64,000 nt of DNA from the NCBI RefSeq assembly GCF_000785555.1, contig NZ_CP009129.1, positions 2,914,001 through 2,978,000 on the forward strand, in the 5' to 3' direction. Positions 1-16,863 of the stretch are shown here, one piece after another. Position numbers and translations under genes: made by a program. The stretch is from Planococcus sp. PAMC 21323 (GTDB lineage Bacteria > Bacillota > Bacilli > Bacillales_A > Planococcaceae). The notes beneath the pieces are model-generated. The model was not told where the DNA came from, made no database searches, and was given only the letters and a program-made list of their open reading frames with translations. Within the stretch, counting starts at the first letter, position 1; each line of letters begins with the position of its first letter.

Positions 1-1716
1 GATTGAATAATCAACTGATGGTGAACTTTTTGTTTCATTTATGTCAATCTCTTCATTTTTTTCATACTCTTTGTTTCTTTTTTGACTATCAGTCAAGTGA
101 CTATTGAATCTTTGTTTTTCTTTTATATTATTATATACTTTTTTTAATACACTCTCATTTAGTCTAAGCAAAATATATAAATCTTCTCCATCAATACAAT
201 TCTCCGGAAAATTATTTTTTATACCTTCTAATAACTCTTGCATACTTAATTTTAGTTCATAAGCTAAATTTTGAAGAGAAATTTTTTCTATTATACCTAT
301 TTCAATCAATTCTTGAAAAAGTTCTTGATACTCTTCACTACTCATTTGATAAGGAAATGCTATCTTACATAAGGAACTAAGATTTACATCATCTATATAA
401 AAAACGGATTTATCTTTACTTTCTAAATAGAAATTTTCTTTCTCTTCCAAAATATATCTTAAAATTTCTTCATAATAACCTTTAAGTTTATTATCAATAA
501 GATACTCATTTATCGGCTTATAAATTTCTTCAAAGAACTCCGATTTAATTCTATTTAAATTATAATTAACTCGCTCTTTAGTATTCCTTTTCGCTTTCTT
601 TTCTTCTACACGGTTATTTCTTTCATGTTTTTCTTCAACCTGGACTTCTATGTTTTCTTTTTCTGTAATATTTTCTGCATCATTATAAATGGTACTAACT
701 TTTTCTTTTTCAGCATTTTTTTGTGCAGTGCTATCTACTATTTTTTCATAGTCCGATTTGGAACTAATTAACGACAAGCTACCAACACCAGGCAATACAT
801 ACAAATCTGGTTTCCTTTTTAGTTCCCTTTCTTCTATAAATCTTAATAATTTATTGTCTATTTGATTAAAGCTTATTTTTTCAATTAAACCAACTTTGAT
901 TAAATAATCTATTTTTTCGATATAAAAATATTCATCTTTTAAAGGATGCATTCTTTTGAATTTGATTTTTAGTTGATCAAATCTCCATAGAAACGCTGGT
1001 CTTCCAATATTTATGCTAAGATCTATCTCTTTATGCAATCTACATTGTGAAACTAATAATGAAAAAGTATAAATTAATTCAGTGTCATTAAGCACTTCAT
1101 CCAATTCATTATTTTTATTTAGCTCTTTCATTTTTTTCAACTCATCATCTAGACAAGTTAATAGTTCAAAAAATTCTTCTTTATTATTCAATTGATTTTG
1201 AACTGGTATCGTATTTACTTCTACTATGTCTTCTTTAAGTTTTTCGTCCATTATACAATCATTCTTCACACTCTTTATTTTTAACGCTAAATTATTTAAT
1301 ACTTGTTCGTCTAATTTAAGTATAATTATGAAATTATTCTGCACATTCTCTTTTCGTGTCAAACTCCAATACTCGAGATTATTACTTCTTAAATATTCAT
1401 TTTCTAAGTCTACATAAGAAACTCTCTTAAATAAATCTAATTCAATAAATTGCGACACTAAATTTTGGTGTCGACTATCTAGTACATTTAGATTTATTTT
1501 AACAACTGAATTTTTTTTATAACTGAAAAACGCATTCTGAGGAAATCCAGAAATTTTTTGCAGAATTTCTTCATAGGATCTTTTTAGATTCTTCGCAATT
1601 AGATATTCATTCAAATCTTTAAATATCTCTTTAAATTCTTCTGAATCAATTAAATTAAGATTAAATTTCATAACTTGATTTGCCTCTTCAACGATGCAAT
1701 CTTTTTTTCTTCCCAT
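1..1716 (-). CDS. Uncharacterised PT-island protein with internal duplication (partial, C-terminus beyond window)
   Basis: An open frame runs from an ATG at 1716 to the left edge without a stop, giving 572 codons. AGGAGGT at 1722-1728 sets the start. I do not recognise the family. The protein is acidic and lysine-rich, with no signal peptide or membrane segment. Two regions look alike: residues about 25-147 and about 392-530 share F-E-I-x-K-x-x-NEYLI, YEEIL, an 'xIExxxxxKxxS' stretch and a closing LxLxExVLxxxxxxIK. Between them lies a charged linker. It is the last gene after sspD, on the same strand with a 131-bp gap, so it may be an effector or accessory of the phosphorothioation island. 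It does not look like the DUF262 protein SspE. Function unknown. Confidence 0.8.
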   Translation of the reverse strand, partial: MGRKKDCIVEEANQVMKFNLNLIDSEEFKEIFKDLNEYLIAKNLKRSYEEILQKISGFPQNAFFSYKKNSVVKINLNVLDSRHQNLVSQFIELDLFKRVSYVDLENEYLRSNNLEYWSLTRKENVQNNFIIILKLDEQVLNNLALKIKSVKNDCIMDEKLKEDIVEVNTIPVQNQLNNKEEFFELLTCLDDELKKMKELNKNNELDEVLNDTELIYTFSLLVSQCRLHKEIDLSINIGRPAFLWRFDQLKIKFKRMHPLKDEYFYIEKIDYLIKVGLIEKISFNQIDNKLLRFIEERELKRKPDLYVLPGVGSLSLISSKSDYEKIVDSTAQKNAEKEKVSTIYNDAENITEKENIEVQVEEKHERNNRVEEKKAKRNTKERVNYNLNRIKSEFFEEIYKPINEYLIDNKLKGYYEEILRYILEEKENFYLESKDKSVFYIDDVNLSSLCKIAFPYQMSSEEYQELFQELIEIGIIEKISLQNLAYELKLSMQELLEGIKNNFPENCIDGEDLYILLRLNESVLKKVYNNIKEKQRFNSHLTDSQKRNKEYEKNEEIDINETKSSPSVDYSI

Positions 1717-1779
1717 AGAAACTACCTCCTTAATATAACATTTTTTCCTTTTGGAAACTTTTGATATTTTATAAATTTA

Positions 1780-1819
1780 TAGCCGCACTATGTAATTAAA
1801 AACTACAATAATGCGGCTA
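1780..1819 (-). terminator. Hairpin between sspD and the downstream 572+ aa gene
   Basis: An 8-bp perfect inverted repeat, TAGCCGCA / TGCGGCTA, flanks a 24-nt AT-rich loop. It starts about 29 bp downstream of the sspD stop. The sequence after it on the minus strand is AT-rich but not a clean T-run, so it may be a leaky terminator or an mRNA-stabilising stem rather than a strict stop. Confidence 0.45.
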
Positions 1820-1847
1820 ATACAAATTGACGGGAATAATGTTTTAT

Positions 1848-2648
1848 TTAAGAAAATGAACAGACACACGGAACAGTTTCATCAGGAATTTTCAAGAAAT
1901 TCTCAACGCCTTCACGATCCATACGTTCACGGTATTCACGCAAAGTATACGGTCCGCCATCTTTTTTCAAGATAGAGACGTTTTTCTCGAAATCTTTTCT
2001 GAAGTTCTCTTCCATTTCTTCTTGTAATGCGTAACGTTCTGGCCATACGTTATAAAGTTGTGCGTAGTGCTGGAATCCTCCACGTACACAACGTCCACCA
2101 CAGTTAGCATGAGAGAATCCCATAGCATACATTCGTGGTAGCTTAATACCCCATTCTTCTTCAATTATTGATTTAACATCGATATCTTCTCTAAAGGTTT
2201 CAATCATTGGAAATCTAGTTTCAATAGGCTCTAGAGGACGATGTGAATAAAACTCTCTTAAATTATCAGACCGATGTGTTTCATGTGGTCCTATACCAAA
2301 ATAAAGTACTGGTTCTAAATTGTGAACGTCCCTTAATTCTTCAAGAAAAACAATCGTTTGTTGAACTTTTAACTCTTCTGAGCACTTCGCTAATCGAGAA
2401 TTACCAAGAAAACGATAATCATAAAATACTTCTTCAGGAGTTCTACCATCAACTCTTTCAGTGATTTCAACCCCAATATAATCTGCAACTTCATACATGA
2501 AGCGATAATTGTCTTCATCTTCCCAAAGGGTGTTTGTAAAGAACAATATACAGTTCTCTTTCCCATGAGCTTGCACCATTTGATAAGCGACATAAGCGCT
2601 AGAAGCACCACCACTATACATAGCTACATGCACTTTTTTTCTTTCCAC
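1848..2648 (-). CDS. sspD: PAPS-reductase-like sulfurtransferase of a DNA phosphorothioation system (SspD-like)
   Basis: The 266-aa protein begins with a PP-loop SGGASS at residues 12-17, as in the phosphoadenosine phosphosulfate reductase / DndC / SspD superfamily, which adenylates the DNA backbone before sulfur insertion. Cysteines include the NCGGRC motif near residue 180 and a C-terminal CVC. The start is GTG at 2648 with AGGAGG at 2656-2661. It lies 14 bp after sspC in the order sspB-sspC-sspD, the known arrangement of the Ssp modification module. It is shorter than typical DndC (about 500 aa), which favours the Ssp type. The assignment rests on the motif plus neighbours. A stand-alone PAPS-reductase-like enzyme is the alternative. 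Confidence 0.8.
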   Translation of the reverse strand: MERKKVHVAMYSGGASSAYVAYQMVQAHGKENCILFFTNTLWEDEDNYRFMYEVADYIGVEITERVDGRTPEEVFYDYRFLGNSRLAKCSEELKVQQTIVFLEELRDVHNLEPVLYFGIGPHETHRSDNLREFYSHRPLEPIETRFPMIETFREDIDVKSIIEEEWGIKLPRMYAMGFSHANCGGRCVRGGFQHYAQLYNVWPERYALQEEMEENFRKDFEKNVSILKKDGGPYTLREYRERMDREGVENFLKIPDETVPCVCSFS

Positions 2649-2662
2649 TTTAACTCCTCCTA

Positions 2663-5600
2663 CTACTCTATATACTCTTCAAGCAACTTGAAGATAAGAT
2701 ATTCAATTTCCTCTCTAGGAACGCTTCTTCCGGCATTGTTTATTATGCGATTTACATTCTCGTAAACTGTATTGGCTTTATTGGACAACTCTACTTTTTT
2801 TACAGATTTTTGTAAATTCCCATAACCTAATACAATCATATCACTATTATCGGAAGATATACCCAAGTCCCTATAATCATTTTGCATCTGTTGTTCAAAT
2901 AAATCAAATGTTGTGTCTGACCAGTTTTCTAGTTCTACGCCTGTATATTTATTTGCAAACTTTCGAGTGAAATCATTAATCTCTGTATCTATAGACTTAA
3001 GCAATCGATTTCGCTTACCTAATTCTACAGAAAAACTTTTGCGTTCTTTTTCTAGTCCTTCAAATGAGTTTACACGGAAAGTTTCAAACACTTTTTCAAG
3101 CAGCTTCGTTTCAAACTGAGCAGAGTGTTCCTCTAGCTCAGTTTTCATTTCCATTAATACATCTATTCCAGAAAATTTCTCTTTCAGCATTTCCAAACTA
3201 ACAATCGGACTAACTTCAATTTTTCTAACTATATTTTTAAAGTCTAATAAACTTGCATTCATTTTGTTAGTAGTTTGGGTATGGCGTGGTAATTGCCTTA
3301 ACCAGTTCAATATGCCACTACTTGCTCTAATCACGACCGTTTGTTCTTTCACATATTCACTTTCATAGGGAAGAAATAATTTTTCTACACCTCTAACGAA
3401 CTGTAGAAACTCTGGTGAATAGTCATTAAAAACATACTGATATTCTTCTGGTTCGTTGAATATTCCATACAGTTTTTCAGCGTCTATAGCCGCAATATAC
3501 ATATCATTTCTGTAGAACATAAGCTGTTCCCACATATCTCTTAATAAACCTACAAATAATACTGGAATTAACGGCTTACGAATACCGAAAGGAGGTAAAG
3601 TGAAAATATTTTCGAGCTCACTGATAGAACCTTTTTTATTATTTTTCAAAAAACCGATTAGTGTTTCTCTAAGTTTTTTATAGGGTTCATAAGTTAATCG
3701 ATCTAAACGACTAACATCAAGACTATTATTTTTAAATACTGTGGCGTACACTAAATAATCTGGCCCTTGACCTTCTATCCCCAGTCTTTCAAAACTTGGA
3801 TTTTTGATAACGTTATTTAATACTTTATAGATAGCTTTTGTCTGCATTCCATTTAAGTTCCTTCTATTTATGGAATCATTTCTAATTTCAGGAGTATCCG
3901 GATACATTTCACTCATTATTTCACTTATCTTATTTTCTAAATGCACCTGATGACTTACAGTGACTTGCGTACCTTCATAAATCCATATTATATTTTCTTG
4001 AAAGTCCTCAAAGGCCTTAAGAAATTCTCTAATTCCAAATTGAGTTTCTGCTATCAGCACGTTCACTTCTTCTTCTAACCGACTATATTCAGATAGAAGA
4101 TTTTTATTTGAGTATATAGACTGCAAACCTATTAGTTTGTCTATATACGTCCGAATAGACTTAAAATCTCTATTTGTAATAGAGAAAATTAAGCGCTTAT
4201 CTTTAATAGAAGATATTGCAGAGATAGATTTTGCATAAGAAATTTCATCATTAGGAATTACGTAGTATATATAACCATCTGCATCAAATTCTATTTCCTC
4301 TAAAAAACTAGCTTTCAGTAATTGCTCTGAAGTTATGATATTCACTTGCATAAACCTGGTTATATTTAACTCATCATTATAATCTGTAGCAAGATAAAAT
4401 TTCTTTTCGAGAATTTCCTTTAAAGTATCTAATCGAACTTCATTATTTAATTTCAGTTCAGCCCTTTCTTCATTAAGCAATTCATCAACTAAAACGGAGC
4501 TTCCTTCATTTAACTCCCATTGCCCAAGAATTCTATTAAAGCGCAACATTTTCTGGTCAACTAATTTTTTTAAATTTGAATTTAATTCAGCTAATGTTTG
4601 TCCCGTCCCAAAGATTAGTAATTCCTCGTTTAGTTTTAATACATTAGTGGCACCCGACAAGTCCCATAGAGTAATTATTTTTAGTAAATTTATTTGTCCT
4701 TCATTCTGCTTAGTTGTCTTTATTTTATTAGTAACTTTAGCGAAAGTTTTTAAAGACGAGAAGTTTTCATTTCCTAGAAATTCACTCATTGAATTTTTAA
4801 AAAAATAATCAAAAAGCATATGAGGATAATACATTCCTTCTGTGTGCTTCGTCACAAAATTAGTCAATCCACCTGTTTCTTCACTCTCAAGAAATGTGAA
4901 TAACGTTCGCTCATTTTGCCCGAAAACACTAGATAGCCTTGGAAGTAAAAATAAAGCTAACGGATGTAAAGGATAGGACCCCTCTACAATCATCTTTTCA
5001 ATTTCTTGATGATTCAGTTCGCTAAATAAATTGTATTTTTTTAATATCCATTTGGAATCTGCTGATTCAAGGTTAAGCAACATTAACTCTTTTTGCATAT
5101 TTTTTGTGTATTCTTGAGCTATACGGTAAAAAGTAGCTTTATCACTCTCTACAAAATATGTTTTGAACCGCTTTTCAATCCTTTGGAATTCCGCCTTAAA
5201 TTCTTCATTATGTCCTAACATATATTGCGACATATTTTTATGCGATATAAGTAATAGTTGTAGAGCATTACCACTCCGTCCCGCTACTTCCGCTAAATCC
5301 TGCACATCCTGCATCGTTTTATAAATTTGTGAGACTTCTAAAGACTGAAGAAAGCGACCAAATTCATCGTAAGCAATAAAAATTTTAATATTCTGTTCTT
5401 TTAACTGTGTAATAATATGTGTAATATTATCTATAAAGTTAGCGTTATAATCTACTTGAAACTTTGCACCTGCACTTAGTGAAGAATATTCCTTAATGAA
5501 CCACTCTATCTCTTCCAAGTTGTTAGTTTGAAGCTCCTTCTTCCACTGTACTAATGTATATTGACGATTTTTAAGTGACTTTTTAAAGGAGTTAAAAGTT

Positions 5601-6094
5601 TTTGGGAATACTAATTCCCAATTCTTCAAAGTACTAAAAACCTCTTCAACTTCTCCAGGAACGTTTAGCTGAAAGCCTGCTTCCTTTACGGACTTTACAA
5701 TAGAATTTATAATCGACTTGCTAAATGGACCTTCATTTCCCGAGAGTACAACTGGAATAAAGAAATCATTAGATTGCTTAGCTGCATTTAGTTTTTCAAA
5801 AACTTCCTGATCTACATCTTTAAACTTATCTATAAGCGCATTAAAATCTTGTGAGTTAATTCTTCGGGAGAAAATATCAGCTACGATAGTCGCTGCCAAT
5901 GATTTGCCACTCCCATAAGGTCCTATCATGATATGGGCATTATTTTTTCCGTCTCCTAGAAACCCCCCAATGATACTTTTCAAAAATTCTGCATGAGAGG
6001 GTGTAGGTAAGTAACGTTTAATAAATTCCTTATTACCAATATCAAACTTCAGATTTATACTAGTTGTGAATGTTTTTTTACTTTCAGTAATCAT
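2663..6094 (-). CDS. sspC: Large P-loop ATPase of a DNA phosphorothioation system (SspC-like)
   Basis: 1143 aa. The Walker A motif GPYGSGKS is at residues 58-65, and a Walker B-like strand ending in YDEFGRF is near residue 240. The rest is helical with long charged segments. The ATG at 6094 lies 11 nt inside the end of sspB, so the two are translationally coupled, and sspD follows 14 bp later. In the Ssp systems described from Vibrio and E. coli, SspC is the ATPase acting with nickase SspB and sulfurtransferase SspD to place single-strand phosphorothioates. The size and the flanking DUF4007 and PAPS-reductase genes support the name. A related BrxC/PglY-type ATPase is the alternative, but no pglZ or pglX is present. 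Confidence 0.75.
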   Translation of the reverse strand: MITESKKTFTTSINLKFDIGNKEFIKRYLPTPSHAEFLKSIIGGFLGDGKNNAHIMIGPYGSGKSLAATIVADIFSRRINSQDFNALIDKFKDVDQEVFEKLNAAKQSNDFFIPVVLSGNEGPFSKSIINSIVKSVKEAGFQLNVPGEVEEVFSTLKNWELVFPKTFNSFKKSLKNRQYTLVQWKKELQTNNLEEIEWFIKEYSSLSAGAKFQVDYNANFIDNITHIITQLKEQNIKIFIAYDEFGRFLQSLEVSQIYKTMQDVQDLAEVAGRSGNALQLLLISHKNMSQYMLGHNEEFKAEFQRIEKRFKTYFVESDKATFYRIAQEYTKNMQKELMLLNLESADSKWILKKYNLFSELNHQEIEKMIVEGSYPLHPLALFLLPRLSSVFGQNERTLFTFLESEETGGLTNFVTKHTEGMYYPHMLFDYFFKNSMSEFLGNENFSSLKTFAKVTNKIKTTKQNEGQINLLKIITLWDLSGATNVLKLNEELLIFGTGQTLAELNSNLKKLVDQKMLRFNRILGQWELNEGSSVLVDELLNEERAELKLNNEVRLDTLKEILEKKFYLATDYNDELNITRFMQVNIITSEQLLKASFLEEIEFDADGYIYYVIPNDEISYAKSISAISSIKDKRLIFSITNRDFKSIRTYIDKLIGLQSIYSNKNLLSEYSRLEEEVNVLIAETQFGIREFLKAFEDFQENIIWIYEGTQVTVSHQVHLENKISEIMSEMYPDTPEIRNDSINRRNLNGMQTKAIYKVLNNVIKNPSFERLGIEGQGPDYLVYATVFKNNSLDVSRLDRLTYEPYKKLRETLIGFLKNNKKGSISELENIFTLPPFGIRKPLIPVLFVGLLRDMWEQLMFYRNDMYIAAIDAEKLYGIFNEPEEYQYVFNDYSPEFLQFVRGVEKLFLPYESEYVKEQTVVIRASSGILNWLRQLPRHTQTTNKMNASLLDFKNIVRKIEVSPIVSLEMLKEKFSGIDVLMEMKTELEEHSAQFETKLLEKVFETFRVNSFEGLEKERKSFSVELGKRNRLLKSIDTEINDFTRKFANKYTGVELENWSDTTFDLFEQQMQNDYRDLGISSDNSDMIVLGYGNLQKSVKKVELSNKANTVYENVNRIINNAGRSVPREEIEYLIFKLLEEYIE

Positions 6095-6965
6095 AGTTTT
6101 TTTCTACCTTTCGTTCATACTCGTAGTAAATAAACTCTTCCGGTGAAACTTCCGGCAGACGAACAGTATCCAAATTATTAGTTCTTGTAAAAGTTGCAGG
6201 ATATTCCGGGTGTTCTGTCCACCCACTAATTAAATTTACAATTGTGGATCTCTTCATGTTGTACAGCTTACCTAGCAACTCTTCTTTATGCACCAAATCA
6301 TCTATACTAATAGCACTTAAATTTCTTCCTTGCATATATTTAAGCAAAGTATACCCCACTAACAATAAATTACTTTTATCCATTTGAGCTTCTTTTTTGT
6401 AGATAATTCCATTACGTTCCTCTAATAAATTAAGTTTAAATAACGGACTAAGAATTACTTCCTCAGGATCTGCTGTACTACCTCCACTTGTGTAGAGTTT
6501 AATTAAACAGTCTATATCACGTTTTAAAGAGTTCTCCGAAACGACCCGTTTTTCTCGTTTCTGAACCCAATTAGTAAGCTCTTCTAATACATCTTCTCTA
6601 GTAAAAGCAGTCTCTGTGTATATATTAAAAAACCAATACCAAGTTGTACTAATATCTTTATTAGTCGCTAAAGAATGATGTAGTAAGCCTGCGGTATTAA
6701 AATATTTAATCGCGCGATCCTTCTCTTTAATAAATTTACCTAAGCGAGTTATTTGATGATACTTTTGATTATTATCTCGAAGCTCTTCATATATTTTGGT
6801 AGCTATAGTCCAATATTTTAAGGACTGAACCATATTTTTGCCTAAACCTATTTTTTCAAATGCATCTTTCTCAAAGAAAAAGGATGCATTTCCCTCTATA
6901 CCTTTAATGGCCTTGCTCACCCATCTGTCTCGTAAATAAAAACTTTGATGTTGACTGTAACCCAT
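6084..6965 (-). CDS. sspB: DUF4007-family protein, SspB-like nickase component
   Basis: 293 aa from the ATG at 6965. A longer frame to 6983 exists, but GAAGGGG precedes the inner ATG at good spacing. The N-terminus has the DUF4007 signature: an aromatic 'HQSFYLRDRWVSKAI' opening and GLGKNMV at residues 40-46 followed by 'SLKYW'. DUF4007 is the family of SspB, reported to nick DNA for backbone sulfur insertion. No signal peptide or membrane segment is present. The stop overlaps the sspC start. The preceding gene ends 74 bp upstream behind a hairpin, so sspBCD could be transcribed separately from the restriction-like genes. Confidence 0.8.
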   Translation of the reverse strand: MGYSQHQSFYLRDRWVSKAIKGIEGNASFFFEKDAFEKIGLGKNMVQSLKYWTIATKIYEELRDNNQKYHQITRLGKFIKEKDRAIKYFNTAGLLHHSLATNKDISTTWYWFFNIYTETAFTREDVLEELTNWVQKREKRVVSENSLKRDIDCLIKLYTSGGSTADPEEVILSPLFKLNLLEERNGIIYKKEAQMDKSNLLLVGYTLLKYMQGRNLSAISIDDLVHKEELLGKLYNMKRSTIVNLISGWTEHPEYPATFTRTNNLDTVRLPEVSPEEFIYYEYERKVEKNYDY

Positions 6966-7016
6966 GTATACCCCTTCTTTCATTGGAGGTCTTCTCCAGT
7001 AAAAATTTACTCAAAG

Positions 7017-7039
7017 AAAAAAGACTCAATGTCTTTTTT
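7017..7039 (-). terminator. Small intrinsic terminator between the 172-aa gene and sspBCD
   Basis: AAAAAAGAC / GTCTTTTTT flanks a 5-nt loop immediately after the stop of the 172-aa gene. On the minus strand it reads as an A-tract, short stem, then a T-tract. It may separate the helicase/SMC half of the island from sspBCD. The stem is mostly A-T, so termination is probably partial. Confidence 0.45.
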
Positions 7040-7558
7040 CTATAGTGCATCTATCAATTCATCAGCTGCACCTTCTTCTATTTCTTCGCTTCTACTTTTC
7101 ATAAATTCATAGGAATTTTTCATGAAATCTTCTTTTGTAATTCCTTCTTTAATAATTTTATCATATAAAATTGTAATTCCACCCAATGCATATTCTTTAA
7201 ATAATTCTAAGTTCTTTTGATGTCGATCAGATACGTCACTATTAGCATCATCTCTAAAAGCTCTATTAATCCTTCCTTCTAAGTCTATATTTCCAGAATC
7301 ATCTAGCAGCATAATTAATCGGTATATATAATCTAAATTAGCTTTTTCTTTATTGATTGCTGCTGCAAAAATACTAATACTAGTATCTTTATATTGAGAT
7401 TCTTTATCTCTTACTTCTCTCTTATCAAAGATGAGCCCGATAACTGCACTATTCATAAAAACATCTAAATATCTGTTGAATAACTTGTTTTCAGAATCTC
7501 CTAGCTCTTTTACGTACTGTGCATGTTTGCCATGTAATACAATATCATCTGTAAACAT
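7040..7558 (-). CDS. Uncharacterised 172-aa protein of the PT island
   Basis: The protein is acidic, soluble and mostly helical, with no recognised motif. The ATG at 7558 directly abuts the TAG of the SMC-like ATPase gene (7559-7561), with GAGGTG nearby, so the two are probably co-translated. Its position beside a DndD-like ATPase suggests a small partner comparable in context to DndE or an SspFGH subunit. I cannot show homology to either. The C-terminus is rich in Glu and Ala. Confidence 0.7.
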   Translation of the reverse strand: MFTDDIVLHGKHAQYVKELGDSENKLFNRYLDVFMNSAVIGLIFDKREVRDKESQYKDTSISIFAAAINKEKANLDYIYRLIMLLDDSGNIDLEGRINRAFRDDANSDVSDRHQKNLELFKEYALGGITILYDKIIKEGITKEDFMKNSYEFMKSRSEEIEEGAADELIDAL

Positions 7559-9547
7559 CTAATTATTCACCTCAACTATCTTAGTTAAAACTTCAGATTT
7601 TTTATCAAGGAAATATCTTTTACCAACCTTTTTCCCCATAGCTTTCTCTGCGTAATTCCAATCTTTTGCCATTACTATCAATACCAATTGGCTGGCAACT
7701 TCAGGAAGTACCTTAGATATATTCTCTACATGTCTTTCATCTGCATTTGAAAAAGGTGCATCTAAAATTAATGGATAATCTTCTGAATCTTTTTCACTAG
7801 AATTGGAATCATCTTGTAGCTTTTCTTTCGCCATATCTACTAAGCCCGAGATGAAAGCAAAATTCTTTACTGTTTCCAACCCTTGAGATTCATCAGTTAT
7901 TAAATCCTGATCAGAGCTAGTTGTTATTAACGTTACTTTATACTTTTCATCGACTTTAACTTTGCGTTTACCGTGATATATTTTCGAAAAATATTCATTA
8001 ACTTTTTCTTCCAGTTTAATTCTAATATCACTCTCTCTAACTTTATACCTTTTTTCTACCCATTCTTTAATAGCAGTTGCATAAGCCATATATTCTAAAA
8101 TCTCTTTATTCTTTTCAGAGGTACTAACGTTATTATTGTGAATAGTTTTGTTGCTACTAATTATGTTATCTTGTTCCCAAATTTGTTTTTCAAGGTTCAA
8201 TAATAGGTTTTCAAGTTGACGAATTTTACTTTCTGTGTCAGTAAGATTTTCTTGATACTTTCCTACTGAATCCTTGCCTTCTAACTCAGTTTTTATAGAA
8301 TCTATTTCATCTTCTAGCTCCGCTATTTTCCCCCTTCTTCTCATAGCATTCTTGTAACTGCCTTCTAAATTCGACATGTAGTTTTGGGAGGAACTCAACA
8401 TTAATTCTGTTTTTTCTTTAAAATTCCTTATTATATTACCAATAGATTCAGGCGGTAAAAAATTGATTTCTTCTAATAGATGTTTGTGAGCTACATTTCC
8501 CTCAACTACTTCTGTTCCGCAAACACATTTCCCTCGAACAATAATATCTTTGATAGAATTGGCATTCATATCTTTAATTCCTTTATCGTCGACATCAGCA
8601 TTTTGTAACTCTATCAATGCTTTTTTCATCAAAGGATTTGCAAGATAGATAAATGTATTTGCTTTAAAGTTTTTGAAAAATTGATCGTTCTGCTCAATTA
8701 AAAATCCATTTTCATAACTTAATTCTTTTTGTTTTAAGTCTCGTTCTTTTTGTAGTCTTGCACTTGCCTCTAGGGTTCTTAACTTCTCTTCTAGCTGTCC
8801 TTTGGTCATTAAATAATGTTCCAACTCTTTAGTTTTTTCTTTCTTACGATTAATTATCTCTTCCTTCTTCTCTTCAGCTTCTTGCATTTTCTGAAGAGCT
8901 TCACTCGCTTTATTATTTCCAGTCAAATTTAAACTAGCATAAAATTTCCCTAATAATGTGGTTTTCGAAGATTCTTTACCAATGTGATCGATTGTATGCT
9001 CCAATACGGTGAGTCCTAAAATGCCTTTGACTGCATCTGTGACATCTGATTTTGTTGTGATATTTCCAAATCTTTCTGTATCATAAAGAAAATATGTAGA
9101 CAAATCTGCCGGAAGAATTTCTTCTATTTTCTGTTTTATTTCGTACGACGGAATTTGCTTCATCTGACCATCAGTTTCTTTATAAGACATCTCAACAGTA
9201 TTTATAGTGGCCGGTTTTATTTCACCATTCTTTAACATGTATTTAAGAGTTCTAGAAATTATATAATCTACTCCATGATGACTTAACTCTATAGAGACTT
9301 TAACTTCATCATCTTTCCTTAAGTTTTGCATCTCATATGCAGCTACTGTGTTTATTAGCGCATCTTTGCTTTTAAAGTTTGCTTGTCCGTACAGACACCA
9401 TAGAAATGCCTGTAATAAAGTAGTTTTTCCACTTGTATTATCACCTTGAATTAACGTTATATTTTCATCCTGTGCAGTCGAAAATATTATTTTTTGTATA
9501 CCTTTAAATTGTCTAAAGTTTTTTATTTCAATACTCTTAATAATCAA
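7559..9547 (-). CDS. DndD/SMC-like ATPase with coiled coil
   Basis: 662 aa. The N-terminus is an ABC/SMC head with the Walker A motif GDNTSGKT at residues 35-42. It is followed by a long charged coiled coil, a central CVCG pair near residue 339 resembling a reduced zinc-hook, a second coil, and a C-terminal head with a SQG-type signature (ESQGLETV) and the Walker B LDAPFSNAD near residue 597. This is the layout of DndD and Rad50/SbcC-like proteins. The start is TTG at 9547 after GGGGGT. In PT systems such ATPases belong either to the Dnd modification complex or to the restriction module. Here SspBCD supplies modification, so a restriction or sensing role is more likely (inference). Confidence 0.75.
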   Translation of the reverse strand: MIIKSIEIKNFRQFKGIQKIIFSTAQDENITLIQGDNTSGKTTLLQAFLWCLYGQANFKSKDALINTVAAYEMQNLRKDDEVKVSIELSHHGVDYIISRTLKYMLKNGEIKPATINTVEMSYKETDGQMKQIPSYEIKQKIEEILPADLSTYFLYDTERFGNITTKSDVTDAVKGILGLTVLEHTIDHIGKESSKTTLLGKFYASLNLTGNNKASEALQKMQEAEEKKEEIINRKKEKTKELEHYLMTKGQLEEKLRTLEASARLQKERDLKQKELSYENGFLIEQNDQFFKNFKANTFIYLANPLMKKALIELQNADVDDKGIKDMNANSIKDIIVRGKCVCGTEVVEGNVAHKHLLEEINFLPPESIGNIIRNFKEKTELMLSSSQNYMSNLEGSYKNAMRRRGKIAELEDEIDSIKTELEGKDSVGKYQENLTDTESKIRQLENLLLNLEKQIWEQDNIISSNKTIHNNNVSTSEKNKEILEYMAYATAIKEWVEKRYKVRESDIRIKLEEKVNEYFSKIYHGKRKVKVDEKYKVTLITTSSDQDLITDESQGLETVKNFAFISGLVDMAKEKLQDDSNSSEKDSEDYPLILDAPFSNADERHVENISKVLPEVASQLVLIVMAKDWNYAEKAMGKKVGKRYFLDKKSEVLTKIVEVNN

Positions 9548-9561
9548 CTAGTCTACCCCCT

Positions 9562-9735
9562 TTAATACTTCGTTTTAACTTCCTCTATAATAATTCCTTT
9601 GATCTTTTCAATCATCGCATCTTTAGTTTTGTCTTTTGTTTTTACATTTTGCTTTTCTTCTCTAATAATCTTCAACTTCATAATTTCCAACTTTTTCTTA
9701 TCAATCTCAAATTCATCCAAATTATAGGAATTCAT
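9562..9735 (-). CDS. Small 57-aa lysine/glutamate-rich protein between helicase and SMC ATPase
   Basis: ATG at 9733-9735 to TAA at 9562-9564. AGGAGG at 9745-9750 gives a textbook site with 9-nt spacing. The start lies 14 nt inside the end of the helicase gene, and the stop is 14 bp before the TTG of the next gene, so it fills the operon gap exactly. The product is highly charged, rich in Lys, Glu and Ile, and probably a single amphipathic helix. I recognise no family. It could be a small adaptor of the helicase-ATPase complex. Confidence 0.7.
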   Translation of the reverse strand: MNSYNLDEFEIDKKKLEIMKLKIIREEKQNVKTKDKTKDAMIEKIKGIIIEEVKTKY

Positions 9736-11896
9736 TATTTACTTCCTCCTCTTTATTTAAATGATAAAACTCTTTAATCTCATTAATTAAAGTGTCAGCA
9801 ACAGAAGAGTTTTCTGCAATTGATGCGAAATCCTTCATTCTAGCAATTTCTCTTAATGGTAAAGATTGCATAGACTGAACTTCTTCTGGCATTAATTCGC
9901 CCATGAGTTCAAATGGCATTGGTAAAGTAATAAAATCATAAATTATTGCATGTTTTTTCCCATCAAACTTCCTGAGTACTCGTCCCCTTCTCTGAACATA
10001 CTCTTTTGGATTAGTACTACTTGCTAAAATAAAAGCCGTTTTTATACTTGGTATATTTACACCCTCATCTAAACATCTAATTGCAATCAAACTTTGTAGA
10101 TGATCTCCTTTGGAGAATGTTTTTTTCAATTCTTCCCTTTCTTCTGCTGACTCTTCAGAAGTAAATTTCGATACTTTAAACCCTAACTTATTTCCAAGTA
10201 AGCTGGTTACAACATCAATTTGCCTCTTTTCTTCTTCATCTGCACTTCCTTCATAGTATTCTGGATCATTAATGGTAGTCGCTCCACAATAGACTAATAT
10301 ATGGGAGTCGTTTTGATATTTTTTAATTTCATTTTCAAGTTTGGTTATTTTTTCTTGAGCCCCTGCTACAATTTTCGCTCTTTTCAGAAGTAAAAATTTT
10401 GCTGATTCTGAAAAAGTAACTTTTCCAAACTTATCTTTTCTAACAGCTTTTGCAATTTGAGTAGTTAGTTCTTGATACTCCAGCAATTCATCTGGGGTTA
10501 AAAATACGGGAACCGGATAGTAATAATAAGGCGTGAGCATATTATTGTTAATTGCCATCTCCAGTGTATACTCAATGCATTTTTCTCCAAAATAATTAAA
10601 TAAACTTTGAGTTCCAACCTCATCATTGTGCCTATTTATAGTTGCCGAAAGTGCTAATCTGAATTGAGCATTATGTAGTAACTTTGTCTGCAAATGTTCC
10701 GCTCCAAAATTGTGAGCTTCATCTACAATCAATAATAGATTCCGTTTTATAGACTTCAGTTGATTTTGAACGAAGTCAGAAGAGAAGGTTGCATTTGTCG
10801 TAACTAAACAAAAGTGATTGTTAACTTCGATATTATATAGTTCAGTTTGCTGCTCTAACCTCTTTTTCCAAGACTTTTGCTTAGATGCAGAATGGGCTAC
10901 AATTGGCTTCATATTAAATAACTCAATATCTTCGACCCACTGATCTACAAGGTGTTGATATGGACATACTATGACTACTGCAAGATTATAATTCAAGTTT
11001 TTCGCCAGTTCTGCTGCGGCACCTAAACCAGTGATAGTTTTCCCCGTACCAGTAGCCATATCGAAAACTCCATTATATCCATGTGTTTTCCATTTTTCTA
11101 TAGCTTCTATTTGATATTCCCTCAAATGAACGTTCTCAGGCGTAACCGGCCCATCAATTCTTTCTCTTTCTGCTATCGCGCTTTTTATTACATATTCCTC
11201 TTGCTCATCCAAAACTAATTCAATTTCATCAGTCTTATAACTTTCCAACTTCTCCTTTACTAGTTTTGGAAAATCTATAGTCAGGACGTTTTTTGCTTGG
11301 TTGGTCCAAATATTTTCAAAAGCTAACTCTTTAGCAGCAACTCTATCTTCTTCAAATGTCCAAGAACGAAAAACATCTATTGATTCGTAGTTATGAGAAA
11401 AAGCAGCCCCTGTTTCATTTAAAGAACCGGTAAAAGCAATTTTATTTCCTTTTTCATCTTCCACAATCCCCATTTTTTCGTGAAAGATACCAATGCTATT
11501 ATTATCTTTAATTAAAGCGATTTTGATATCTATTATTCCATTCGCTATTAAATTTGCCAATAAATTCAAACGCTTCTTGCTAAAGAAATCTAAATCAGAA
11601 TCAAATGAATTTAATAATTTTTCTTCTATTATTTTATCTCTACTTTTATATCCAAAATAAATTGCATCGATATCTTCCTCAGATAATCTCGGAGAAGCTA
11701 TAATCCTAACTTTCCCTTTATTCCTAATTAGCCCCGCTATACCCTTAGTAATTTCTATTAATGCTGTTGATGAAAAAAAACCAACAGCTCGATCGTATCT
11801 AATTGCAGTCTCAAGAACAGGAATATAAAATTCTTTGACCATATCATTTTCAAAAGATCTATATTCATTTTTGATTTCGATGTTTACTAGACTCAT
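9722..11896 (-). CDS. PLD-nuclease/SF2-helicase fusion, probable PT-system restriction protein
   Basis: 724 aa from the ATG at 11896, chosen because AGGGAGGG lies at 11903-11910. A longer frame to 11938 lacks a ribosome binding site. The N-terminal 200 residues are a phospholipase-D-like domain with HEK near residue 138 and GSLN near 155. An SF2 helicase follows: GTGKT near 282, DEAH near 394 and QRRGRVLR near 635. This architecture matches helicases annotated as DNA-phosphorothioation restriction enzymes near dnd loci, and PLD-type restriction helicases generally. It is the first gene of the island, so it probably begins the transcript. The canonical Asp after HxK(x4) is Glu here. Confidence 0.8.
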   Translation of the reverse strand: MSLVNIEIKNEYRSFENDMVKEFYIPVLETAIRYDRAVGFFSSTALIEITKGIAGLIRNKGKVRIIASPRLSEEDIDAIYFGYKSRDKIIEEKLLNSFDSDLDFFSKKRLNLLANLIANGIIDIKIALIKDNNSIGIFHEKMGIVEDEKGNKIAFTGSLNETGAAFSHNYESIDVFRSWTFEEDRVAAKELAFENIWTNQAKNVLTIDFPKLVKEKLESYKTDEIELVLDEQEEYVIKSAIAERERIDGPVTPENVHLREYQIEAIEKWKTHGYNGVFDMATGTGKTITGLGAAAELAKNLNYNLAVVIVCPYQHLVDQWVEDIELFNMKPIVAHSASKQKSWKKRLEQQTELYNIEVNNHFCLVTTNATFSSDFVQNQLKSIKRNLLLIVDEAHNFGAEHLQTKLLHNAQFRLALSATINRHNDEVGTQSLFNYFGEKCIEYTLEMAINNNMLTPYYYYPVPVFLTPDELLEYQELTTQIAKAVRKDKFGKVTFSESAKFLLLKRAKIVAGAQEKITKLENEIKKYQNDSHILVYCGATTINDPEYYEGSADEEEKRQIDVVTSLLGNKLGFKVSKFTSEESAEEREELKKTFSKGDHLQSLIAIRCLDEGVNIPSIKTAFILASSTNPKEYVQRRGRVLRKFDGKKHAIIYDFITLPMPFELMGELMPEEVQSMQSLPLREIARMKDFASIAENSSVADTLINEIKEFYHLNKEEEVNNEFL

Positions 11897-12394
11897 TTTA
11901 TACCCTCCCTTAATTATAGATTTAACTATTAATGGCATAGTTATTATGATTTACGCCCATGTATCTTTATACTCAAAACATAGAAGTCATTTACATTTAT
12001 TATCCTACATTTCCCATTGTTTATAAAGTATTATTTATAATTTTCCTTTTTTTCTATTTACATTTTAGGCACATATGCTTAAAACATAAATTTAAACTAC
12101 TGAGTCGATATTTAAGCATTTTAATAAATTCTTGTAATTAAAATAACGTATTTTTATGTCATGTATTCACTATTATTTAATTTTTGCTATCACTAACCGC
12201 CCTCACATCTTATTAGAATAGCTTCAATAAAATCCTGAAATCTCTTAGCGCTATATTAGTTTCAAACTCCTCTTAAAAAATTCGGTCTACAAGAAGATCG
12301 ATTTTATAACACACTAATATTAGAAAAAAATATTGATAATTGTAAACCTATTAAACTTTAAATCTAAACGAAACGATTAGAGAAGTGTTCCAAA
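11897..12394. other. AT-rich intergenic region upstream of the PT island
   Basis: No convincing gene. Short open frames here lack ribosome binding sites and codon structure. The promoter of the minus-strand island should lie here. A TATAAT-like hexamer is only about 10 bp from the helicase ribosome site, so the true -10 is uncertain. From about 12300 the sequence begins to resemble the upstream region of the nuclease lipoprotein gene at 21.58 kb. Confidence 0.4.
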
Positions 12395-12633
12395 TTGAAA
12401 GTGAACCATTTAATGATCCTATTGCCGTCTATCTTTCTAGTTGACTGTACGGATATCAAAGACGCAGTTATGACAGATGTCGAAGTACATGAAGAAACCG
12501 CAGTTGAAACAGAAGAACTTGTCACATCTATTGTGAAGAATCAGAAGTAGAGAAAACTCAGGCAAAATCAAATAATGAATTATTCGCAGTACACAAATTA
12601 ATCGAAGTGGATGAAGGAGACTTGTCTAGCGAC
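12395..12633 (+). pseudogene. Decayed, truncated copy of the secreted-nuclease lipoprotein gene
   Basis: The stretch is clearly related to 21670-21925. It has a matching upstream region (ACGATTAGAG), a start changed from ATG to TTG, the same MKVNHL opening, a lipobox changed from LVGC to LVDC, and the same acidic spacer. A frameshift brings TAG at 12548-12550. Beyond it the other frame continues the match (EVDEGDLS against EVDGGDLS). Similarity then stops before the nuclease domain. It is a dead 5' fragment on the same strand as the intact gene about 9.3 kb away. Confidence 0.8.
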
Positions 12634-12740
12634 CAATCGACATTAAACACCATTATCTTTCTATACTCTTCATATAAGAACACCTCTTATCTATTCCAAA
12701 TCAAAGGTACTCATATTTCTTTATTAAAAAGTAATTCAAA

Positions 12741-12810
12741 AAAGCCCTCTTGTAATTATTCCGGATCATGGTCAAGTAAATTGACACCGAAATATTACAA
12801 AAAGGGCTTT
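12741..12810. repeat. 70-bp imperfect palindrome, terminator or MITE/IS remnant
   Basis: AAAGCCCT at 12741-12748 pairs with AGGGCTTT at 12803-12810. The pairing continues inward through TTGTAAT/ATTACAA, ATTCCGG/CCGAAAT and GTCAA/TTGAC around a 5-nt loop. On the minus strand it ends in a T-run about 100 bp after the glutamine-synthetase-like gene and can terminate it. The arms are far longer than a normal terminator, so a small mobile-element remnant is possible. Confidence 0.55.
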
Positions 12811-12912
12811 ATACTATTTATTATTAAAGGAAAATCAAGAAAGTTATTGGACAAACAATCACAATTTTCCTTTTCAGTTCATTCTACTATTCTTATCTTC
12901 CTATCGAGCTTT

Positions 12913-14280
12913 TTAATACACGTTAGAATACAGTTTTCTTTCCCATTCATCCACACGGTAAAAATGAAGCTTCCACTCTTCTTGCTTCACTTTTATAAAC
13001 TCCTGCCAAATATCACGACCGATAGTTTCTGCTAGAATCGTGTCTTCTGCCAAATAGCTTAAAGCTTCTTTCAAATCACGAGGAACCCATTCGACTCCTA
13101 AAGCATCCAGTTCTTCTTGAGAAAGATTACCGACGTCTTTTTCTAAAGGCATTCCAGGATCCAGTTTCTCTCTCACACCGTGTAGTCCAGCTGCTATCAA
13201 AGATGCTGACAATAAATACGGATTGCATGTTCCGTCTGCACCACGGTATTCAAAACGTCTCTCTCGTCTCGGTTCTAATACGCGCACCAAGCTTGAGCGG
13301 TTTCCGACACCATAGCAAATATGGGCTGGTGCAAATGAACCTGGTATCATTCGTTTATACGAGTTTACCGTCGGCGCAGCAATTGCAGATAAGGCTTTTC
13401 CGTGATGAAGAATACCTCCGATAAAGTAATATGCTACTTCTGAGAGGTCGAGTCCACGACTGTCATTCAAGTCTTTAAATAAATTCTTATCTCCTTCAAA
13501 CAGACTCATATGCACATGAAGTCCACTTCCTGCTAACTCATTGAATGGTTTTGGCGCTAACGTTCCCACCATGCCAGCTTCTCTCGCCAAATGTTTGAAT
13601 AACTGTTTGAACGTTACTTGATCATCGGTTGCTTTTAAACAATGATCGTATTTTAAATTAATTTCTACTTGTCCAGGACCGAACTCGCTCGAAACTTGCT
13701 CAGTCTCTACTCCCATTAATCCCATCGTTTCGATAAAATTCTGGATGAAATCTTCTTGAATATCTAAACCATCCGTTGAAAAACACGCGCTATTGTCAGC
13801 CGGAACCAGCTTTCCATCTTCTTCTTTCATTAAATATGCTTCTTGCTCGTAAACCATTTTGATTTGTCCACCTAGCACTTCTTCTGCTTCTTTTAAAAGC
13901 TTCTTTAATACGCTGCGTGGACAGCCTTGCCAAGGATTGCCGTTTTCATCAACCAAGTCGCAAAACATGCGTGCCGTTTTGCGGCGATGTGGCAATATAA
14001 CAAATGTATCGGGATCGGGTAAGGCGAAAAAATCACCGCTGTCTGCTCCGTATGAAGGGTTCGGAACATACGTATCGAACATTGTGAAATCCATAATCGC
14101 CGCGCTGAAATTGACCCCTACTTCCATTGCATTCGCAATCTGCTCTTTTCTAATTGTTCTAGCTCTTGTAACCCCTGAGTAATCTAAAAATTCAACACGT
14201 ATATAATCAATATTTTCTTGTTCAATTTTTCTCATGACTTCGCTGATTTTTGTTTCGATTACGCCTATGTTTCTTTCCAT
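12913..14280 (-). CDS. Glutamine synthetase-like gamma-glutamyl-amine ligase
   Basis: 455 aa, glutamine synthetase catalytic fold. Visible signatures are the metal/glutamate segment EFGPGQVEINL, the GSGLHVHMSLF histidine/metal motif, and NRSSLVRV for ATP/glutamate binding. It is the last gene of a four-gene minus-strand set with an M20 hydrolase, an APC permease and an amidohydrolase-2, all beside an aminotransferase. A nitrogen-assimilating GlnA normally sits beside glnR, which is absent. The context therefore favours a PuuA/FluG/IpuC-like enzyme that glutamylates an amine before oxidation or transamination. The substrate cannot be read from the sequence. Confidence 0.8.
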   Translation of the reverse strand: MERNIGVIETKISEVMRKIEQENIDYIRVEFLDYSGVTRARTIRKEQIANAMEVGVNFSAAIMDFTMFDTYVPNPSYGADSGDFFALPDPDTFVILPHRRKTARMFCDLVDENGNPWQGCPRSVLKKLLKEAEEVLGGQIKMVYEQEAYLMKEEDGKLVPADNSACFSTDGLDIQEDFIQNFIETMGLMGVETEQVSSEFGPGQVEINLKYDHCLKATDDQVTFKQLFKHLAREAGMVGTLAPKPFNELAGSGLHVHMSLFEGDKNLFKDLNDSRGLDLSEVAYYFIGGILHHGKALSAIAAPTVNSYKRMIPGSFAPAHICYGVGNRSSLVRVLEPRRERRFEYRGADGTCNPYLLSASLIAAGLHGVREKLDPGMPLEKDVGNLSQEELDALGVEWVPRDLKEALSYLAEDTILAETIGRDIWQEFIKVKQEEWKLHFYRVDEWERKLYSNVY

Positions 14281-14282
14281 CC

Positions 14283-15464
14283 TTAACGCCTCACATTCTG
14301 CAATAGATTGATCGCGTAATTCACATACAAGCTGACTCCTGTAGCCAAGACGGCATCGTCAAAATGGAATCGTGGATGATGTAAATCATACGTTGTTTCA
14401 TCTTCTTTTTTAATCCCCAGACGGAAGTACAAACTAGGTATCTTTTCAGAAAAATAACCAAAGTCATCTGCTCCCATTGAAGGTTCTGGCAAATCGACTA
14501 CCTTCTCCTCACCTAGTAGTTCGCTTGCTGTTTTGATAAACTCAGAAACCAAAGTAATCTCATTTTCGATTTGTGGAGCACCGAGTAAGAATTCAATATC
14601 AATTTTGACATCCCATTGAATTTCAGAGGCCCGACATACTCGTTCAAGTTCCGTTCTCAACTGACTTCTTACTTCGCTATTTAATGCTCGATATGTTCCT
14701 TCCATAACCACGTGGTCTGCGACAATATTGCTTGCCTCTCCCCCATAAATTTTACCAATATGGATGACTTTCGGTTGTGTCGGATTAATATTTTTGGCAG
14801 CTACTAGTTGTAGTGTCTGCATAATCTGTGATGCTACTAAGATGGCATCAACCGCTTGATGCGGACGTGCGCTATGGCCAGATTTACCGCTAATTGTAAT
14901 TTTGAAATCATCGCATGAAGCCGTCATGCTCCCTGATTTGACGCCTACAGTCCCAATTGGCAAATATGGCCATAAATGAAGACCTGTAATAGATTCGAGG
15001 TGAGGGTTTTTTAAGATCCCCAGTTTAATTAGCGCAAGTGCGGCTCCATCTGCTTCTTCACCAGGTTGAAAAATGCAACGCACAGTTCCTTTGAGAAGTG
15101 TTTTGTTGTGATGTAATTCATAAACAGCTCCTAGCAAAATAGCGGTATGACCGTCATGCCCACAAGCATGCATTACTTGTTGATGAGTGGATTTAAAAGG
15201 CACCTCTGCTTCTTCCTGTATGGGTAAAGCATCAATGTCTGCGCGTAAGCCTATAGCCGGACCGTTTTTGTCCCCTACAATATCGACAAAAATTCCTGTT
15301 TCCCCAATTCTTTCATAAGGTATTCCCCATTCCTCTAATACCGCTCCAATATAACGAGCTGTTTCGAATTCTTTAAAGGAAAGCTCAGGATATTGGTGGA
15401 GATGACGCCTGATAGCAACGACCTGTGCATCGATTTCTTTAGTTGATTGGAATTGGTTAGTCAT
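14283..15464 (-). CDS. M20-family amidohydrolase (N-acyl-amino-acid / hippurate hydrolase type)
   Basis: 393 aa with the M20D metal-binding layout: ACGHDGH near residue 105, PGEEADG near 140 and a late HHPRFHFDD histidine. Such enzymes (YxeP/HipO/IAA-amino-acid hydrolases) cleave N-acyl or amide bonds of amino acids and are cytosolic. It overlaps the end of the permease gene and sits 2 bp before the ligase gene, so all are one operon. In this setting it may release the amino compound from an amide, or cleave a gamma-glutamyl intermediate. The role is inferred from neighbours. Confidence 0.8.
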   Translation of the reverse strand: MTNQFQSTKEIDAQVVAIRRHLHQYPELSFKEFETARYIGAVLEEWGIPYERIGETGIFVDIVGDKNGPAIGLRADIDALPIQEEAEVPFKSTHQQVMHACGHDGHTAILLGAVYELHHNKTLLKGTVRCIFQPGEEADGAALALIKLGILKNPHLESITGLHLWPYLPIGTVGVKSGSMTASCDDFKITISGKSGHSARPHQAVDAILVASQIMQTLQLVAAKNINPTQPKVIHIGKIYGGEASNIVADHVVMEGTYRALNSEVRSQLRTELERVCRASEIQWDVKIDIEFLLGAPQIENEITLVSEFIKTASELLGEEKVVDLPEPSMGADDFGYFSEKIPSLYFRLGIKKEDETTYDLHHPRFHFDDAVLATGVSLYVNYAINLLQNVRR

Positions 15465-16845: not shown

Positions 16846-16863
16846 CCCATTTCCCCTTTTCGT

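Follow-up and report, generated by a model that had tools for sequence, protein, structure and literature searches.

The effector cassette PbeABCD was tested together with the Dnd modification genes, DndCDEA, and its action is reported to depend on phosphorothioation (PT) and to require all four genes (Xiong 2019, PMC6459918). The same paper already terms Pbe cassettes without dndCD 'solitary', and asks whether other modifications serve the 320 of 553 pbeAC pairs that are found without dndCD. PbeABCD was reannotated in another paper as an HKD-helicase, a small protein, a CxC ABC ATPase and a DndE cognate (PMC10853773). The pairing of SspBCD with PbeABCD was not described in the accessible text of any paper found in our literature search; both modules are known, and their combination is undescribed as far as found.

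Here we analyzed a window of 64,000 nucleotides from Planococcus sp. PAMC 21323, in which a Pbe cassette adjoins Ssp modification genes. Like the DndCDEA-PbeABCD system, the window carries pbeA-B-C-D in the same order and encodes the same four protein types; unlike that system, the modification partner is SspBCD and not DndCDEA. The PbeA of the window shares 28-44% identity with the Dnd-linked and partner-less PbeA proteins found and 40-59% with the Ssp-linked ones of its own clade. Like SspABCD-SspE (Xiong 2020, as cited by other papers) and SspABCD-SspFGH (Wang 2021, PMC8092258), the window has an sspB-sspC-sspD module; unlike them, it carries neither SspE nor SspFGH but PbeABCD in their place, and its SspD is a divergent short form.

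Layout of the island

Seven genes form a tightly packed run on the minus strand at positions 1848-11896, pbeA-pbeB-pbeC-pbeD-sspB-sspC-sspD (Table 1). All genes named in the preliminary description of this DNA are present with intact ORFs, and so is the sspB-C-D order that it gave. Based on the gene coordinates, pbeA and pbeB overlap by 14 bp, pbeB and pbeC are 14 bp apart, and pbeC abuts pbeD; sspB and sspC overlap by 11 bp, with a further 14 bp between sspC and sspD. The GC content in 2-kb windows is 26-34% across approximately positions 1-13000 versus 34-42% elsewhere in the window. No tRNA gene that could have been an insertion site was found anywhere in the window, and an Rfam search of positions 1-14000 gave no match.

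Table 1 Features of the island and its neighbor in the window.
Feature	Position	Strand	Description
pbeA	9722..11896	-	N-terminal PLD/HKD nuclease domain and ResIII/SF2 helicase, 724 aa; ORF reaches 11938
pbeB	9562..9735	-	57-aa small protein
pbeC	7559..9547	-	DndD-like ABC ATPase, CxC clade, 662 aa, TTG start
pbeD	7040..7558	-	Predicted DndE-like protein, 172 aa
11-bp hairpin	7015..7041	-	Separates pbe and ssp modules; putatively attenuator-like
sspB	6084..6965	-	DUF4007 protein
sspC	2663..6094	-	P-loop ATPase, 1143 aa
sspD	1848..2648	-	Short PAPS-reductase-like sulfur transfer protein, 266 aa
Strong hairpin past sspD	1781..1818	-	Probable operon end
Orphan gene (window part)	1..1716	-	Part of a 611-aa gene; neighbor, probably outside the system

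The promoter scan returned 54 sites versus 58 expected by chance and is thus uninformative, and no terminator was predicted on the minus strand. The hairpin between the two modules (fold z -2.7; equal stability in 2 of 200 shuffles) may act in an attenuator-like manner, and its position speaks against SspBCD-PbeABCD as one unit. The region after sspD, 1715-1850, folds more stably than all 200 of its shuffles (z -4.5). The hairpin within it is probably the operon end, a role that we only infer because a long U-run is absent.

The gene at the window edge, given earlier as 572+ aa and as part of the island, is 611 aa at full length (genome C1:2913884-2915716). It had no noteworthy match in Pfam, PADLOC or NCBIfam, no relatives in 120 other genomes of the family and no match among the mapped relatives of the island; 15 pattern matches to viral contigs included none that was confirmed, and the predicted structure of its window part was too poor to be used (pLDDT 34). 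This orphan is probably not part of the system, and we rejected it as a member.

The Pbe cassette and the Ssp module

The "restriction half" of the island, regarded in the preliminary description as unusual or new, matches at the level of protein families the published PbeABCD cassette (PMC6459918), which had not been recognized, and not SspFGH, SspE or DndFGH. PbeA, with 738 aa as an ORF, is more likely to be translated from the ATG at 11896, which is preceded by a ribosome-site-like sequence and coincides with the gene end given earlier. It scores 832 bits on the PADLOC PbeA profile and 526 bits on TIGR04095, below the profile cut-off of 600; its Pfam domains (PLDc_2, ResIII and Helicase_C) make it a PLD/HKD-helicase fusion, whose HKD residues H153, K155 and N174 are conserved across the family. 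The 57-aa protein had no match in Pfam or PADLOC and one meaningless match in NCBIfam (E 0.03); its location and size mark it as PbeB, as does the 47% identity that it shares with its Peribacillus muralis counterpart, a small gene flanked by pbeA and pbeC.

PbeC scores 400 bits on the PADLOC PbeC profile and 84 bits on DndD, and carries the CxC Zn-hook of the CxC ABC ATPases as CVC at residue 341. The CxC was found in all 21 full Ssp-labelled PbeC proteins outside the Bacteroidota clade and in 0 of 18 DndD rows. PbeD is barely detectable by sequence, and its predicted structure resembles DndE (Foldseek E 0.2, with a Z rated modest for helical models by the tool), values that count against the joint reading of the two modules. 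The model suggests that PbeD is the DndE cognate, with which we count the PbeABCD set as present. The proposal of a hybrid with Dnd-like parts is thus borne out for a DndD-like PbeC and a PbeD modelled as DndE-like. DndC had no PADLOC match in the island, which leaves SspBCD as the modification partner.

The Ssp-type modification module proposed earlier was recovered by both Pfam and PADLOC, with SspB, SspC and SspD adjoining in the expected order; profile searches of the island proteins thus bear out the Ssp families and assign PbeA and PbeC to PbeABCD. SspB is 299 aa as an ORF and probably starts at the ATG at 6965, giving 293 aa; it scores 205 bits on DUF4007 and 175 bits on the PADLOC SspB profile, and matches the solved SspB (PDB 6juf/6lb9, E 7e-17). 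The Walker A residues of SspC (G58, Y60, G61, G63, K64 and S65) and its D243-E244 are invariant in a 10-row family alignment. SspD, of which PptA is a solved relative, has a non-standard loop, SGGASS, and just 43 bits on the PADLOC SspD profile (E 9e-12), an observation against the joint reading; it is 88% identical to the P. muralis SspD, which directly follows sspB-sspC there.

PF00266 is the family that includes cysteine desulfurases. No PF00266 match, and hence no linked SspA, was found inside the island, as previously remarked, and all 17 matches genome-wide, five of them above 200 bits, lie outside it. SspA is also absent from 17 of 20 Ssp loci with a short SspD, the window among them, so its absence is usual for such loci. 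The island would have to borrow a desulfurase, as had been supposed, and the PF00266 proteins encoded elsewhere in the genome are candidate donors. A separate IscS is reported to serve Vibrio anguillarum FF-93, so a linked SspA is not strictly required (PMC8092258).

Readings as SspE, DndFGH or BREX type 4 were rejected, such family matches being absent among those listed from Pfam, PADLOC and NCBIfam. SspE is of the DUF262/GmrSD type; no GmrSD match (Pfam) lies in the island and no SspE is among the PADLOC matches listed; the single GmrSD_N match of the genome, at 555 kb, scores as HEC-05 and not as SspE. DndF, DndG and DndH are likewise absent among the PADLOC matches listed for the eight proteins (for PbeC, the best 25 of 67). 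As for BREX type 4, with its set of BrxP, BrxC, PglZ and BrxL, neither PglZ nor BrxL is among the PADLOC matches listed, and SspC scores weaker on BrxC (115 versus 384 bits on SspC).

Recurrence of the pairing and alternative readings

The pairing seen in the island is recurrent in many bacteria. In a phylum sample of 28 Ssp genomes, 11 encode a full PbeA no more than 20 kb from SspC; three of 31 SspC genomes had been excluded beforehand because their protein had a BrxC-like length (1388-1415 aa), and two of these three, represented by loci, show no SspB match. The pair is enriched in one phylum by co-occurrence tests, which ignore shared descent. The 80 PbeA loci are a sample from at least 80 matches, with 17 (L162-L178) left unmapped because the matches were weak (E 3e-22 or poorer, identity at most 31%), and three duplicates were removed to obtain distinct loci. 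Ssp genes stand beside 38 of 78 distinct PbeA loci, in a sample biased by the query and Ssp-linked seeds. Neither Ssp nor Dnd genes occur on the available stretch in 17 of the 78, and Pbe may therefore not always need PT; one locus (L091) was counted as 'other' despite an SspC that lies about 150 kb from it in the same genome. Several loci end at contig edges, where absence of Pbe, Ssp or Dnd is uncertain.

In the PbeA tree, from which proteins shorter than 600 aa were excluded (such as L048, L097, L112, L126, L130, L152 and L155), the Ssp-linked proteins form two separate clades, a pattern that alone cannot tell gains from losses; the AU test excluded L135, and the groups compared in it were chosen with the tree already known. 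The paired modules are collinear in 34 of 37 loci. Locked co-evolution of the modules was looked for by distance correlation and not found: correlations are high within modules (rho 0.75-0.93, also summarized as 0.81-0.88). Between modules they are weak in the Bacillota-centred set, at 0.14-0.23 (p 0.06-0.17, n=19; not significant), and reach 0.46-0.67 in the Bacteroidota set (p 0.07-0.13, n=6), so neither module evolves in lockstep with the other. These between-module correlations and the 17 loci with neither Ssp nor Dnd are observations against the joint reading. Among 72,556 plasmid records, the sole SspC match is in Treponema saccharophilum (22% identity); PbeA relatives occur on 24 plasmid records (best 38% identity), and the Treponema plasmid is not among the best 15 of these.

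We consider it unlikely that two self-sufficient modules merely travel together, with SspBCD working for a different effector or in epigenetic roles and PbeABCD ignoring the Ssp mark. Such cotravel would be consistent with the weak between-module correlations, the loci without Ssp or Dnd, the intervening hairpin, and two Ssp loci without a full Pbe, which carry SspF-SspG (L046) or a GmrSD/HEC-type gene (L047), but the enrichment in one phylum, the collinearity, the recurrence in two PbeA clades and the PT dependence of PbeABCD reported in PMC6459918 argue against it. Far less probable is that PbeC and PbeD join in marking as a second modification complex, with SspD as sulfur donor and PbeA as the sole effector. 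DndD and DndE are modification parts in Dnd systems, and the resemblance of PbeC and of the PbeD model to them would fit; SspB and SspC, however, already occupy those roles, the CxC hook of PbeC is missing from the DndD rows, and PbeABCD was reported as an effector that needs all four genes (PMC6459918).

The closest relative among the compared loci is in Peribacillus muralis DSM 16288, where counterparts of all seven genes lie on one contig, with identities of 59% (PbeA), 47% (PbeB), 46% (PbeC), 46% (PbeD), 52% (SspB), 42% (SspC) and 88% (SspD). It is closer than two other compared loci for each of the seven genes, and its PbeA is the nearest to that of the window among 78 rows. P. muralis has SspFGH genes between pbeD and sspB, and the window has none there; P. 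muralis thus has two effector sets and the window one. The new SspFGH-like effector set proposed earlier, with nothing but closeness to sspBCD in its favor, has a negligible probability and is refuted by profile matches at the level of family membership, as no SspF, SspG or SspH is among the PADLOC matches listed for the eight proteins (for PbeC, the best 25 of 67) and true SspF and SspG in the Peribacillus relative score 886 and 382 bits.

Proposed function and implications

The observed gene identities, intact key motifs, DndE-like fold of the modelled PbeD, tight collinearity, recurrence and two Ssp-linked PbeA clades are consistent with a PT defense island made of an SspBCD marking half and a PbeABCD attacking half, which we consider the probable explanation. 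PT would be made here as follows: a housekeeping cysteine desulfurase would supply SspD with sulfur, which SspB together with the ring ATPase SspC would install in a single strand of the host DNA, at a short sequence motif. PbeC and PbeD, an ABC ATPase and a putatively DndE-like protein, may then scan DNA for the Ssp mark, with PbeB as a small adaptor, and PbeA, through its SF2 helicase and HKD nuclease domain, would stall or nick DNA without the mark, so that an invading phage genome would not replicate.

The recurrence points to an exchange of blocking cassettes between marking systems. We see about even chances that SspBCD-PbeABCD is a widespread PT defense class, of which many effector-less SspBCD modules and solitary PbeABCD cassettes are the halves, that Pbe is mark-tolerant, accepting the single-strand Ssp as well as the Dnd mark, and that it was coupled to Ssp at least two times independently. 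The Dnd mark is double-strand and the Ssp mark single-strand. Presenting one Pbe cassette with either mark makes self/non-self discrimination directly testable for a PT effector. The SspBCD-PbeABCD pairing also answers in part which modifications serve pbeAC without dndCD, as asked in PMC6459918. Marking and attacking modules seem to have been exchanged, and annotation should therefore not equate Pbe with Dnd.

Gene content of the island and its sulfur source

The island was found to consist of seven intact genes packed in a single minus-strand run (window 1848-11896). The preliminary description had placed DUF4007, P-loop ATPase and PAPS-reductase-like genes in the sspB-C-D order, downstream of a PLD-helicase, a 57-aa gene, a DndD-like ATPase and a 172-aa protein. 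Profile searches supported this order, and the four upstream genes, intact in the same run, were identified as pbeABCD, a published virus-blocking cassette tested with Dnd marking. The TIGR04095 match in PbeA reached 526 bits, below the cut-off of 600, and the DndD profile gave PbeC just 84 bits, against 400 from the PbeC profile.

Genes of the island and the adjacent gene (window coordinates; the pbeA and sspB starts were picked by eye from ribosome-site-like sequence)
Gene	Position	Strand	Product and profile matches
pbeA	start likely 11896	minus	PLD/HKD nuclease and SF2 helicase; PbeA 832 bits
pbeB	between pbeA and pbeC	minus	57 aa
pbeC	after pbeB	minus	662-aa ABC ATPase, TTG start; PbeC 400 bits
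pbeD	between pbeC and sspB	minus	172 aa
sspB	start likely 6965	minus	DUF4007 205 bits; SspB 175 bits
sspC	between sspB and sspD	minus	1143-aa P-loop ATPase; SspC 384 bits
sspD	1848-2648	minus	266-aa PAPS-reductase-like; SspD 43 bits
Adjacent gene	1-1716, cut by window edge		611 aa in full (genome contig C1:2913884-2915716)

The window is AT-rich over its first 13 kb, with a GC content of 26-34% against 34-42% in the remainder. A strong hairpin (z -4.5) lies in the 131 bp between sspD and the 611-aa gene, and a weaker one (z -2.7) between pbeD and sspB. The 611-aa gene had no meaningful family match in Pfam, PADLOC and NCBIfam profile searches, no relative among 120 other genomes of its taxonomic family and no match among the mapped relative loci, and is probably a neighbour rather than part of the SspBCD-PbeABCD system. 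By eye, the N-terminal part of its product resembles a stretch near residue 380-440, a possible internal repeat.

PF00266, the family containing the desulfurases, had no match anywhere in the island, which bears out the earlier reading that an SspA-type cysteine desulfurase is absent; elsewhere in the genome there were 17 matches, candidate desulfurases and others together, five of them above 200 bits. Among the mapped loci with sspC, 17 of the 20 that encode a short SspD, a count that takes in the window, had no SspA-like gene nearby, so its absence here is usual for the type; a linked SspA-like cysteine desulfurase was present in 26 of 29 long-SspD loci. Vibrio anguillarum FF-93 uses IscS, according to the part of the SspFGH paper (PMC8092258) consulted. 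Long SspD proteins measure 522-638 aa (L034-L050, L100-L112, L121), and that of L040 scores 329 bits with BrxP of BREX type 4 versus 48 with SspD. In the PDB, the window SspD has a single relative, a chain called PptA (21fy, E 1e-10).

Recurrence of the pairing

In a phylum sample of 398 genomes, SspC was found in 31, of which 28 counted as Ssp by length and context, and 11 of these 28 carried a full PbeA within the same 20-kb stretch (the window and 10 of 27 fetched loci). L048 had only PbeA pieces beside ssp, and in G086 Pbe lay 36 kb from Ssp. PbeA occurred in 25 of the 398 genomes, with Dnd genes at the locus in three (L086, L090, L096), and the 12 best PbeA matches all came from SspC genomes. 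SspC and PbeA were held together by 14 genomes (Fisher p 5e-12, or 4e-11 minus the window's genome, a test that ignores shared descent).

Combining the phylum set with a profile scan of named genomes (at least 80 loci, 63 mapped) gave 78 distinct full PbeA. Ssp genes were on the same stretch in 38 (L099 counted via L238) and farther off in the genome for 3, Dnd genes were at 20, neither was at 17 and both together at none, shares that are no population estimates because the seeds were mostly Ssp-linked. Partner labels came from custom-built profiles; for eight DndC and one DndD, the Dnd labels were also checked with PADLOC. Of the genomes without Ssp at the PbeA locus, 36 were searched (L099's among them) and 3 of these held SspC. 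The ssp and pbe genes shared one strand in 34/37 loci.

In Peribacillus muralis DSM 16288, pbeABCD, then sspFGH, then sspBCD lie on a single contig (L099 10001-22151 and L238), so that one set of marking genes is accompanied by two sets of effectors; profile scores were 886 bits for SspF, 382 for SspG and 43 for SspH on its first part. Identities to the window were 59, 47, 46 and 46% for PbeA to PbeD, and 52, 42 and 88% for SspB, SspC and SspD, with SspD strongly conserved and SspB and SspC diverging.

Evolution of the two modules and conserved motifs

We placed Ssp linkage on a PbeA tree built by a quick method with SH-aLRT support. Linkage required 4 changes, 3 of them forced by well supported branches, whereas shuffled labels required 26.2 on average and 0/500 shuffles went as low as 4. 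A Bacillota-centred clade was Ssp-linked in 26/27 rows and a Bacteroidota clade in 14/14 (support 96); uniting the two was rejected (p 7e-88), the groups having been named after the tree was seen. Gains and losses of linkage are not separable because the root position is not fixed.

Within-module distance correlations in the Bacillota-centred set (n=19) were 0.81 for pbeA-pbeC and 0.88 for sspB-sspC, and between-module correlations were 0.14-0.23 (p 0.06-0.17), so that the modules hardly agree; in the Bacteroidota set (n=6) the values were 0.93 and 0.75 within and 0.46-0.67 between modules (p 0.07-0.13). The part of the PbeABCD paper (PMC6459918) consulted gives 0.107 for DndCD versus PbeAC. 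L052 appears to be an example of a module swap, judged by identities to the window of 57% for PbeA and 42% for PbeC, but 27% for SspB and 21% for SspC.

The HKD residues H153, K155 and N174 and the helicase residues K300, T301, D406, E407 and H409 were kept across the 78 PbeA, apart from one undetermined residue; D161 was substituted in two Dnd-linked rows. The intact HKD site would fit the cleavage that PMC10853773, in the part consulted, proposes as part of CxC/Pbe action; viral DNA cleavage was not seen in PMC6459918, as far as the text covered reports. Outside the Bacteroidota clade, all 21 full PbeC of Ssp-labelled rows carried the CxC hook (L135 among them falls outside both Ssp clades). 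The hook was present in 17/20 Dnd-linked and in 9/16 other PbeC, and in 0/18 DndD rows, which include one duplicate pair. This hook, which defines the CxC clade, was missing from 13/13 Ssp-labelled Bacteroidota-clade PbeC (such as L133, L136 and L145).

Variants at related loci and relation to published systems

The 1509-aa protein of L056 (2866-7392) combines PglW/PD-T4-6-type kinase matches with an SspF-like C-terminal third (142 bits), an apparent kinase-SspF fusion; an SspG-like gene comes next. A weak match to a 290-aa L052 protein pointed to similar large genes downstream of sspD in L051, L053 and L058 (1486-1524 aa), in L059 (833 aa) and, where the contig ends, in L055 (850 aa). Between the ssp and pbe modules lie that 290-aa gene, with no family match (L052:6641-7510), and a gene that matches HEC-06, Orf5 and, weakly, SspE (L050:5870-8116). 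DndB-like proteins (72-73 bits) were found within the Ssp loci L145 (7553-8785) and L042 (6157-7407). Upstream of PbeABCD, with no Ssp or Dnd genes, L087 (5531-8998), L089 (9641-13045) and L095 (4490-8449) encode a 1135-1320-aa Sigma70_r4 protein, possibly another partner of Pbe; that of L089 also has an RNA polymerase alpha-CTD-like domain. Effectors have apparently decayed beside intact ssp genes in L043, where pbeC is broken into two frames (14830-16900), and in L048, where pbeA is down to pieces (5623-6530).

The SspBCD-PbeABCD pairing is not described in the parts consulted of PMC6459918, PMC10853773, PMC12707154, PMC11676413, PMC7464106, PMC8053081, PMC9252829, PMC11931770 and PMC12602166, nor in the results and discussion of PMC8092258; it may stand in some table, as supplements and subscription journals fell outside this scope. 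In the part covered, PMC7464106 counts strains with PT-modifying genes (dnd and ssp queries) plus pbeA-D, marking set unspecified, and its data may include ssp-pbe strains. The component modules are of known kinds, and what is new, within the literature covered, is their combination. The SspBCD-PbeABCD hybrid in the window is intact and recurrent in nature.
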